Source of the DNA: Eublepharis macularius
Lineage: Eukaryota; Chordata; Lepidosauria; Squamata; Eublepharidae
DNA length: 64,000 nt
NCBI RefSeq assembly: GCF_028583425.1
Contig: NC_072806.1
Location: 30,426,001-30,490,000, forward strand
Direction of reading: 5' to 3'
Below the pieces are notes generated by a model. It worked only from the letters and a program-made list of their open reading frames with translations. It ran no database searches and was not told where the DNA came from. A program made the translations under genes and the position numbers. Below, piece by piece: positions 23,101 to 23,854 of the stretch. How positions within the stretch are numbered: the first letter of the stretch is position 1; each line of letters opens with the position of its first letter.

Positions 23101-23854
23101 ACCCAACTGGAGTTCGTTGAAGGCTCCCTGAATTAAGAGCTTTCAATTGTGCTCTGAGTACGTAGAGAGGAAAGAGGGAGCGAGCGATACAAGAAAACGT
23201 GTTTGCTGCCATCATAGAGGTTTGTCATCACGTCTCACATATCTGACACTTGTTGCAGACCACAGTTTATTGTGATGCCTGAATGTAGGCAAGAAGGTCT
23301 GGTCAATATATTGTTGAAGGCTTTCACGGCCGGAGAACAATGGTTGTTGTGGATTTTCCGGGCTGTATAGCCATGGTCTTGGCATTGTAGTTCCTGACGT
23401 TTCGCCAGCAGCTGTGGCTGGCATCTTCAGAGGTGTAGCACCAAAAGACAGAGATCTCTCAGTGTCACAGCTGCTGGCGAAACGTCAGGAACTACAATGC
23501 CAAGACCACGGCCATACAGCCCGGAGAATCCACAACAACCAAGGTCTGGTCAGTTCCACTAGCCAGAGCAAAGATTTTTAGCTAGAAGAAAAGCTTGTTC
23601 AAAAATAGTTTTAAAGCCAGAGATAATCCACAAGTAACAAATTAAAAGGCAAGGTGAAACAGATCTCTTCAATTGTTCATCCATCATTTGGCTGGCATAA
23701 TGCTTTGAATAATACCAAAGTTATGCCAGGCTGGGTCCACTTACTTTGGAGACAGGACACTTGGGCACAGAGGGGGAAGGATACTTTCCGGCTTTTTAAA
23801 CCCGAACGTTACACTGGCTCTCAGTTTTCTGCGTCGCTGTTTATATTTGGCCAT
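11085..23854 (-). CDS. PRR11: PRR11, proline-rich protein 11, nine coding exons (complete CDS)
   Basis: Spliced minus-strand gene. Exons (genomic, 5' to 3'): 23854-23745, 20884-20746, 19189-19058, 17004-16795, 15057-14959, 13402-13296, 13162-13103, 12989-12893, 11153-11085. Lengths sum to 1023 bp, phases agree at every junction, and the product is 340 residues (human about 360). It opens [13 protein letters not shown], has the W-rich stretch [10 protein letters not shown], a helical segment, a proline run ([16 protein letters not shown]), and the conserved blocks [36 protein letters not shown] and [13 protein letters not shown], all recognisable from human PRR11. In mammals it is a nuclear/cytoplasmic cell-cycle protein of S to G2/M phase, linked to actin and cancer proliferation; its molecular activity is poorly defined. 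The CXXC-like pair I recall in the human middle region is not seen here. It is head-to-head with SKA2. One intron appears to use a GC donor. Confidence 0.93.
12100..12480 (+). repeat. Dispersed repeat in a PRR11 intron
   Basis: AGATCTCCTTGGGAAGGGAA, CACAACTGAGAAGGCCCTTT and GGGGCCTCCAAGCATGAGC follow the order of a widespread reptile repeat whose class I cannot name. Confidence 0.4.
12588..12790 (+). mobile_element. tRNA-derived SINE (GGCTGTGGCTCAG type)
   Basis: Pol III A box TGGCTCAGGGGG and B box GGTCCCAGGATCAACCC, followed by a non-tRNA body. A second copy is at about 60431-60615. In the last PRR11 intron. Confidence 0.75.
12893..12989 (-). CDS. PRR11: PRR11 coding exon 8, with GC splice donor
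   Basis: 97 bp. Encodes [18 protein letters not shown] then [14 protein letters not shown], nearly identical to human. The exon ends CAG and is followed by gcaagg, not gt: a GC-AG intron with an otherwise strong donor. Reading through instead gives a stop a few codons later and loses the conserved C-terminus. Confidence 0.88.
13103..13162 (-). CDS. PRR11: PRR11 coding exon 7
   Basis: 60 bp, enters after two codon bases and leaves with two; donor AAG|gtaaat. Encodes [19 protein letters not shown], matching human TPGKSQMDLRKLLRKVDVE. Confidence 0.87.
13296..13402 (-). CDS. PRR11: PRR11 coding exon 6
   Basis: 107 bp, phase 0 to 2, donor AAG|gtgag. Encodes [18 protein letters not shown], matching human NPLVTVSDLQHVTLKPN. 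The acceptor could be the upstream atcag (used here, preserves alignment length) or a ttacag 18 bp further in; both keep the frame. Confidence 0.85.
14959..15057 (-). CDS. PRR11: PRR11 coding exon 5
   Basis: 99 bp, phase 0 to 0, acceptor ttggtttag, donor AAG|gtgtgt. Encodes the most conserved block of the protein, [20 protein letters not shown]. Confidence 0.93.
15402..15470 (-). mobile_element. L2-like LINE 3' terminal fragment
   Basis: Reversed: only the GC stem (GCGAAAGCGGGGAGGGCGGA) and (AATTT)n tail, almost identical to the end of the 54.5 kb copy, so probably a recent 5'-truncated insertion. Confidence 0.75.
16302..16546 (+). mobile_element. Sauria-type tRNA SINE
   Basis: Head GAGCCAGTTTGGTGTAGTGG with box-B-like GGTTTGATTCC, body TGAAGCCAGCTGGGTGACC, BovB-like 3' end TTGTCCTGAAGGGCAGTA and (ATT)n tail. 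In a PRR11 intron. Confidence 0.88.
16795..17004 (-). CDS. PRR11: PRR11 coding exon 4, proline-rich region
   Basis: 210 bp, phase 0 to 0, acceptor tttttaacag, donor CAG|gtgaag. Carries the polyproline run that names the protein, then [12 protein letters not shown]. The segment before the prolines is the least conserved against human. Confidence 0.88.
17371..17392 (+). repeat. (CTC)n microsatellite
   Basis: Seven CTC units, followed by a SINE-like piece (CTGCCTTTCTCACTGAGATC). Confidence 0.85.
17735..18030 (+). mobile_element. L2/CR1-like LINE C-terminal fragment
   Basis: GCATTGGCTGCCCATGAG (LHWLP) and CAACTGGTTCAGAATGTGGC (QLVQNVA) in the order of the L2 C-terminus. In a PRR11 intron. Confidence 0.6.
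18181..18430 (-). mobile_element. Sauria-type tRNA SINE
   Basis: Reversed full-length copy: (CAA)n, then TACCGCCCTTCAGGACAAC, ending CACCAAACTGGCTCC. Confidence 0.88.
19058..19189 (-). CDS. PRR11: PRR11 coding exon 3
   Basis: 132 bp, phase 0 to 0, acceptor ctcctgcag, donor CAG|gtagat. Encodes [19 protein letters not shown] followed by a leucine/glutamate-rich helical stretch ([14 protein letters not shown]), likely coiled coil, corresponding to the human region around HRELYSVKQQFCILESKL. Confidence 0.9.
19530..19985 (+). mobile_element. L2-like LINE 3' end
   Basis: Matches the last coding stretch ([22 protein letters not shown]) and 3' tail of the 54.5 kb element, ending CTGAGCCTGCTTGCGGGGA and (AAAAT)n. 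In a PRR11 intron. Confidence 0.8.
19990..20400 (-). mobile_element. L1-type LINE 3' end, second copy
   Basis: Minus strand encodes [19 protein letters not shown] and [12 protein letters not shown], again the L1 ORF2 C-terminus. The 3' part abuts the L2-like tail at 19985. Confidence 0.7.
20746..20884 (-). CDS. PRR11: PRR11 coding exon 2
   Basis: 139 bp, acceptor ...ctttggcag, donor TGG|gtagg. Encodes [15 protein letters not shown] and later [10 protein letters not shown]. The YSWCRNS block aligns with the human YSWCQNC block, which fixes the exon, and the phase (1 to 0) joins exons 1 and 3 exactly. Confidence 0.85.
20940..21725 (-). mobile_element. L1-type LINE 3' end, interrupted by a hAT MITE
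   Basis: Minus strand at 21722-21525 encodes [32 protein letters not shown] and [12 protein letters not shown], the typical L1 ORF2 C-terminus. The 3' UTR continues to about 20940 and is split by the MITE at 21090-21362. Confidence 0.78.
21090..21362 (+). mobile_element. hAT-type MITE with duplicated left end
   Basis: Element proper 21120-21362, termini CAGGGCTTTTTTTTC / GAAAAAAAGCCCTG. Target duplication ATTGTATC occurs three times: 21082-21089, 21112-21119 and 21363-21370, because the first 22 bp of the element plus the duplication are repeated in tandem at the left. Inserted into an L1-type tail. Confidence 0.8.
21953..22610 (+). repeat. Compound repeat: two direct copies plus inverted tail segments
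   Basis: A block of about 150 bp (AACTCCCAAGGAGACCAAAA, GGGTGTTAATGAGATGTAAT, GTGCAGTCAAG) occurs at about 21953-22115 and 22366-22520. A short segment TTCAAGCCATGG after copy 1 is present inverted (CCATGGCTTGAAGAAATCC) after copy 2. A 5S SINE lies between. Confidence 0.6.
22205..22365 (-). mobile_element. 5S-rRNA-derived SINE, reversed
   Basis: Reads, inverted, as TGGATGGGGAACCACC ... GGAAGGCACTGGCAAATC ... GTCAGTTGCGATTTAATAG. It sits between the two direct copies of the 21.95/22.37 kb repeat. Confidence 0.6.
22950..23145 (+). repeat. Imperfect inverted-repeat element
   Basis: Left arm GGTTCAGGAAGCCTTCAACA pairs with right arm GTTGAAGGCTCCCTGAAT; inner segments (GGGCAAAT, GTTTCCTCCC and inverses) also pair, so each arm is about 90 bp. 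No coding content. Confidence 0.55.
23306..23540 (+). mobile_element. Palindromic fold-back element, family A, copy 1
   Basis: Inverted arms around a short loop. Left arm begins GAAGGCTTTCACGGCC after a short lead, then GGTTGTTGTGGATTTTCC; right arm ends ...CCACAACAACC. The left side is longer than the right by about 36 bp. Flanked by a perfect 12 bp direct repeat AAGGTCTGGTCA (23294-23305 and 23541-23552). The minus strand of the left arm carries CTGAAGA, a GCCAGC/GCTGGC stem and GAAAC. Read as a non-autonomous Penelope-like element with inverted pseudo-LTRs (inference). Lies upstream of PRR11 coding exon 2, inside intron 1 of the coding region. Confidence 0.7.

Follow-up and report, generated by a model that had tools for sequence, protein, structure and literature searches.

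Fold-back inserts in the window

Three fold-back inserts of 193–243 bp, here called family A, were analyzed in a 64-kb window of Eublepharis macularius (the window being the whole stretch of DNA examined), where they lie at 23306-23540 (copy 1), 33993-34235 (copy 2) and 38249-38441 (copy 3). Each is a pair of inverted arms carrying the first part of an open reading frame (ORF) of a Penelope-like element (PLE). The paired arms are 76 nt and 96% complementary in copy 1 (23341-23416/23466-23541, with 49 nt between the paired parts), 110 nt and 95% complementary in copy 2 (33992-34101/34103-34212, 1-nt spacer), and 75 nt and 92% complementary in copy 3 (38283-38357/38369-38443, 11-nt spacer). The arms of copy 1 are unequal, and the centre of copy 3 holds a 20-bp tandem duplication. 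From the centre outward, a full arm consists of a leader, a hammerhead-like core and the first part of the PLE ORF. An extra segment, the tail, is present on one side of each insert. In copies 1 and 3 this is the left side and in copy 2 the right, a change which indicates that the tail belongs to the element. The features of family A are as follows, with identities given to PAc, the Poseidon element of Anolis carolinensis.

23294-23305, no strand: copy 1 left target-site duplication, AAGGTCTGGTCA, 12/12 identical to 23541-23552
23306-23340, minus strand: copy 1 tail, PLE ORF about +84 to +119, from the PAc alignment
23341-23433, minus strand (sense): left arm of copy 1, with the hammerhead-like core and the start of the ORF; arm and tail together 77% to PAc over 132 nt
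23393-23433, minus strand: copy 1 left-arm hammerhead-like core, CCT-CTGAAGA-T-GCCAGC(7)GCTGGC-GAA-ACGT-C-AGG, descriptor match, layout as in PAc
23463-23540, plus strand: copy 1 right arm without tail, ORF about +6 to +83, 73% to PAc
23541-23552, no strand: copy 1 right target-site duplication, 12/12
33977-33992, no strand: copy 2 left target-site duplication, GACAGTTTC[G/A]ATATTG, 15/16
33993-34101, minus strand: copy 2 left arm without tail, ORF about -23 to +85, 75% to PAc over 95 nt
34046-34086, minus strand: copy 2 left-arm hammerhead-like core, same letters as copy 1, descriptor match
34103-34239, plus strand: copy 2 right arm with tail, ORF about -23 to +109/+113, 75% to PAc over 126 nt
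34236-34251, no strand: copy 2 right target-site duplication, 15/16, sharing GACA with the element
38235-38248, no strand: copy 3 left target-site duplication, ATTTAAGGTTATTG, 14/14
38249-38357, minus strand: copy 3 left arm with tail, ORF about +11 to +119, 76% to PAc over 104 nt
38366-38441, plus strand: copy 3 right arm without tail, ORF about +8 to +83, 73% to PAc
38442-38455, no strand: copy 3 right target-site duplication, 14/14

In the left arm of copy 1, leader sequence extends past 23433 to about 23466. The end of the tail in copy 2 is ambiguous by 4 bases because GACA is common to element and target. At their inner ends the arms stop at about +6 and above -8 in copy 1, at -23 and -23 in copy 2, and at +11 and +8 in copy 3. 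The flanking-direct-repeat score was 11, 13 and 13 for copies 1–3, respectively, while among 400 random site pairs the highest score was 10, which occurred once.

An earlier note on this DNA had described three fold-back copies with inverted arms, flanking duplications of 12, 16 (one mismatch) and 14 bp, and a one-sided segment that is reversed in copy 2 and intrinsic to the element, and these observations were confirmed by the arm pairing, the duplications and the position of the tail. Its statement that long, variable duplications do not fit cut-and-paste miniature inverted-repeat transposable elements (MITEs) was also upheld: the duplications span 12–16 bp, the tail occurs on one side only, and family A lacks the symmetric terminal inverted repeats and the fixed-length duplication of such transposons.

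Homology to PAc

PAc was characterized in PMC11167929, which gives its 361-nt RNA template. All six family A arms aligned to this RNA at 73–77% identity, the best of them at 77% over 132 nt; for each arm, 0/1000 shuffles matched its score. When PAc was compared with the whole window using BLAST, the six arms gave expectation values (E) from 2e-23 to 1.6e-7, and the next match had an E of 0.009. The start peptide of family A, a composite of the arms, matched the PAc N-terminus MPAIDVGETSG...SPKDIQQPCDPGHESLRQ with a score of 86, compared to 43 for the top of 2000 shuffles. The PLE frame is free of stop codons in 6/6 arms; in two arms the other two sense frames are stop-free as well. The ORF start sits inside the repeat and runs on into the tail, and family A and PAc alike have 29 nt between the A of the ATG and the candidate cleavage site, which lies 26 nt beyond the codon. 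For the leader upstream of the hammerhead-like core, no alignment to PAc was obtained.

The outer ends of the arms were placed on the ORF using the PAc alignment. Arms without the tail end at +83, +85 and +83, and arms with the tail at +119, +113 (or +109) and +119, for copies 1–3, respectively. Reverse transcription of PAc starts most often 111–118 bp into the ORF, and the tail corresponds to the stretch between the two start sites observed (PMC11167929). The tail ends at +113 and +119 thus adjoin the mapped start; at the inner start the fit is indirect, the text giving no number for it.

Taken as sequence comparisons, these results strongly support a derivation of the three inserts, as short insertions, from a Poseidon-clade PLE. 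The Penelope-like identity proposed in the earlier note was therefore sustained, through the homology to PAc, the equal ORF start, the tail end at the mapped start of reverse transcription and the hammerhead layout. Variable target-site duplications, inverted pseudo-long terminal repeats and an optional tail of 30–40 bp, all traits of Poseidon-clade PLEs, are present as well. Exact-pattern scans with three patterns in all, two per collection, gave 0 matches in viral and prokaryotic collections, which are not meant for vertebrate genomes; blastn against plasmids and phages, likewise not vertebrate collections, gave chance-level matches only (E 3–9), and a peptide search of the PDB gave 0 matches.

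Hammerhead-like core

Minimal type I hammerhead ribozymes of Penelope-like elements were reportedly described by Cervera and de la Pena in 2014. They comprise a CUGANGA core, stem II, GAA, a very short stem III (ACGU), a cleavage site after GUC, and stem I. Family A has the same core layout, as does PAc, and both differ from the canonical hammerhead in having one base more between A9 and stem II.

The descriptor used for scanning consisted of CTGAAGA, one extra base (T), a 6-bp stem, a 7-nt loop, GAA, ACGT, C and a 3-bp stem I; it was drawn up after family A had been seen, and PAc was not used in writing it. The window yielded two exact matches, which lie in the left arms of family A copies 1 and 2 (2/6 arms), and none occurred in 200 and in a further 150 first-order-Markov windows. 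PAc matches the descriptor with equal stem length, equal loop length and the same extra base (CUGAGGA-U-GCC). Between family A and PAc, pair 4 of stem II is changed on both sides (A-T, T-G) yet still paired. In the right arm of copy 2 the core is altered in stem II (GCTAGC) and stem III (ATGT), and the remaining three arms (copy 1 right and both arms of copy 3) begin within stem II or its loop. Having the core sequence and stems of the minimal PLE type, the family A core was classified as a putative hammerhead ribozyme of that type.

The earlier note had held that the extra base makes activity doubtful. That doubt is largely answered: PAc has the extra base, and its ribozyme cleaves when PAc protein is present, with C3G or G8C abolishing cleavage (PMC11167929), so that the extra base alone does not exclude activity. 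The covariance-model check that the note had proposed was negative, since Rfam hammerhead models, run at an E limit of 10 on the whole window and on insert 1 alone and without a PAc positive control, gave no match. RNAfold returned stem II as drawn for the left arm of copy 1 from the ATG on; with the leader included it returned other pairings, which were favored by opposite-arm bases held in the extract, and for PAc from -20 to +60 the hammerhead was not returned. All six arms cross the ribozyme cut site at +29/+30, which indicates that the copied RNA was not cut there, in agreement with the report that unprocessed RNA is the main template (PMC11167929).

Insertions B and F

Nine self-paired palindromes longer than 150 nt were found in the window. 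Two of them, B and F, follow a plan comparable to family A:

5498-5764, no strand: B, palindromic insertion of a second PLE-type lineage, with a 12/12 duplication and a right-hand tail; one arm holds a degraded hammerhead-like core
31187-31410, no strand: F, a relative of B and likewise a palindromic insertion, with a 13/14 duplication and a right-hand tail; one arm holds a degraded hammerhead-like core

In both, the duplication lies at most 2 bp from the palindrome on one side and 36–38 bp off on the other. B and F are related to each other by sequence. Neither gave a convincing match to PAc: the score of the right arm of B was reached by 14/1000 shuffles, and those of the other three arms by 283, 519 and 591/1000. 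Their hammerhead-like cores, one arm each, have 1 and 2 mismatches and the extra base seen in family A; they appear only when stem I is not required, for which simulation expects 0.007 (at most 1 mismatch) and 0.033 (at most 2) per window, and with stem I required neither core was matched in the window.

Fragments resembling the lineage of B lie at 6624-6675 (79% over 53 nt), which seems to extend towards the tail, and at 48418-48444 (93% over 28 nt); neither is palindromic. A 41-nt segment at 44063-44103 is 80% similar to the left end of F, including the target duplication.

Origin of the inserts

Family A was probably generated by two-ended insertion, in which target-primed reverse transcription proceeds from both cut strands and the products are then joined. 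The PLE enzyme would cut both target strands with a stagger of 12–16 nt, and each free 3′ end would prime copying of the PLE RNA at either of two internal start sites. Initiation at about +119 of the ORF would yield the arm with the tail, and initiation at about +84, from the other end, the arm without it. Each copy would run back through the ORF start and the hammerhead-like region, in some cases into the leader, and halt after about 75–160 nt; the two complementary DNA (cDNA) ends would be joined head to head, and gap filling would create the target duplications. Priming of both ends in one event, and the manner in which the centre is joined, are the steps that we infer.

PAc cleaves and extends both target strands, unlike what had been shown for R2 and LINE-1, and initiates internally (PMC11167929). 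Two start sites combined with joined cDNAs would give a head-to-head pair with one tail and duplications of stagger length, which is the anatomy observed. Exactly one tail is present per element, in 3/3 copies of family A and in 5/5 insertions when B and F are included, and the arms of copies 1 and 3 are unequal, in keeping with separate truncation of two cDNAs.

Several points weigh against this origin. The sample is three copies of family A from a single 64-kb window. If the ends were independent, at the best odds, one tail in each of five elements would have a probability of 0.03, so the one-tail rule could be chance, and the excerpted text of PMC3846280 terms the tail optional. No difference in the start of reverse transcription between top and bottom strands was observed in PMC11167929, which means that this work does not predict one start site for each, and it contains no report of two such cDNA ends joining. 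The family A duplications show no evident ATT motif, the one that PAc prefers, at their edges. At 193–243 bp the inserts are too short to encode either a telomerase-like reverse transcriptase or a GIY-YIG endonuclease, and are therefore PLE-derived insertions, not complete PLEs. No PLE enzyme was present among the 7 ORFs tested with Pfam out of 43 ORFs of at least 110 codons in the window, a count in which shorter or broken PLE pieces were not sought. In addition, the near-perfect palindrome of copy 2 and the two private variants common to the arms of copy 3 are easily explained by self-priming. The stronger proposal, that the palindromes are direct records of both-strand target-primed reverse transcription in one event, with the ends bound to different RNA start sites, is tentative, and we lean slightly against it.

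Self-priming, in which one PLE cDNA (or an antisense template) folds back and is copied and the palindrome is then joined to the target, was considered unlikely. It would account for the 110-nt arms and 1-nt spacer of copy 2, and it is favored in the excerpts of PMC3846280 for abundant palindromes at inverted junctions. Both arms of copy 3 carry the private variants A in GGCAATACAG and C in AACCCACA, as if one arm had been copied from the other, although two RNAs from one locus explain them equally well (the T at ORF +8 of right arms, possibly junction-derived in copies 1 and 3, was left out of the shared-variant count). A self-primed product should have its tail mirrored, whereas one arm ends at +83/85 and the other at +113/119 in 3/3 copies; the arms of copy 1 are unequal; and no copy has arms that resemble each other more than they resemble the arms of the other copies. 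If self-priming took part at all, the strongest candidates would possibly be copy 2, with its near-perfect centre, and copy 3, with its two shared variants.

The earlier note had read the inserts as non-autonomous Penelope-like palindromes. As a family, these would be propagated in palindromic form by PLE proteins acting in trans. Three copies of one plan occur within 64 kb, and the excerpts of PMC3846280 infer that sequences of the pseudo-long terminal repeat (pLTR) suffice for integration in trans. The centres, however, are unlike one another, with spacers of 49, 1 and 11 nt, different inner arm ends and a tandem duplication in copy 3 only, so that even allowing for post-insertion trimming, which could blur differences between palindrome centres, we regard such a family as quite improbable. 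Because the centres differ in position and structure, the three copies are more likely separate truncated insertions, each arising from ordinary PLE RNA at insertion. The earlier interpretation is in this respect partly supported: its PLE origin stands, and a palindromic family is not supported.

Insertion of one PLE followed by that of another, head-on into it or next to it, would be compatible with the statement that nicking by the PAc complex may extend to its own pLTR or to other sites (PMC11167929), but a single duplication encloses the whole pair in 3/3 copies and none was found separating the arms, which makes this origin very improbable. Foldback or MITE-type DNA transposons moved by a transposase, suggested by the near-palindromic shape, the flanking duplications and the presence of an element of such kind at 21120-21362, can be practically dismissed, given duplications of 12, 15/16 and 14 bp, ends made asymmetric by the tail and, unless a transposon captured PLE sequence, homology to the ORF start of a retrotransposon.

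On how PLEs insert, the excerpts of PMC3846280 favor self-priming for head-to-head palindromes, and PMC11167929 demonstrates in vitro that PAc primes both strands from internal sites, with later steps yet to be validated. Inserts that consist of two arms only, such as those favoring two-ended insertion here, display both ends of insertion events, and these ends agree with the in vitro start; they offer a simple means, by counting, of testing the two models against each other in any squamate genome. If both-strand priming in one event is true, inverted Penelope repeats would owe their origin to it and not to self-priming on an antisense template, and different start sites at the two ends would imply an asymmetric dimeric complex.

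Comparison with known systems

Family A and PAc share homologous RNA across the hammerhead, ORF start and tail, a start codon at the base of stem II and an extra U at the same place. PAc is a full coding element in tandem units, whereas family A has about 75–160 nt per arm, set head to head, and no enzyme. The Penelope elements of Adineta vaga, as far as the excerpts of PMC3846280 describe them, resemble family A in their adjacent inverted pLTRs, head-to-head palindromes and an ORF start within the pLTR, with an optional 31-bp tail on one inverted pLTR. They differ in that, in these excerpts, the inverted pLTR is found together with a coding copy, with a deleted derivative or with captured DNA, whereas a family A insert is two arms only, and in that the target-site duplications are 8–10 bp, compared to 12–16 bp. 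Animal retrozymes, in the excerpted text of PMC7229834, are similarly short non-coding retroelements with type I hammerheads, except that they are tandem repeats; the arms of family A are inverted, and it was not assigned to the retrozymes.

Inverted pLTRs, one-sided tails and head-to-head palindromes were thus already known (excerpts of PMC3846280), as were the two start sites and both-strand priming of PAc (PMC11167929). No published link of these features into two-ended insertions was found in the open-licence literature, outside of which most subscription journals lie.

Other features of the window

Palindromic or inverted elements resembling DNA transposons, with CAGGGCTTTTTTT-type ends, lie at 21120-21362 and 24168-25501, and we take both to be hAT-like. 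The first has an 8-bp duplication, ATTGTATC, directly at both ends, as hAT transposons do, in contrast to the one-tailed plan of family A. The palindromes at 7185-7432 and 42869-43056 (75% and 71% self-complementary, respectively) have no clear target duplication. An inverted repeat at 61006-61710 has 87-nt arms (90%) and a 10-bp direct repeat, AAAATATTTA, near its ends; this feature is of low complexity and may be due to chance.

Precursor matches to mir-130 (30656-30739, plus strand, 52.3 bits, gathering score 40.6) and mir-301 (32359-32442, plus strand, 93.6 bits, gathering score 56) were obtained with Rfam; microRNA-family matches at the inserts were rejected as arising from the palindromes themselves. 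The mir-130 and mir-301 matches and the TRIM37 exon given below mark the DNA as vertebrate, and the closeness of family A to an Anolis element makes a squamate source likely. The 7 ORFs examined with Pfam gave RVT_1 in two and nothing in five. The two RVT_1 ORFs, at 48703-49293 and 54550-55941 (the latter of 464 codons without a stop), are by appearance of the long interspersed nuclear element type. An exon at 57576-57680 matches TRIM37 (PDB 3lrq) with an E of 2e-16.

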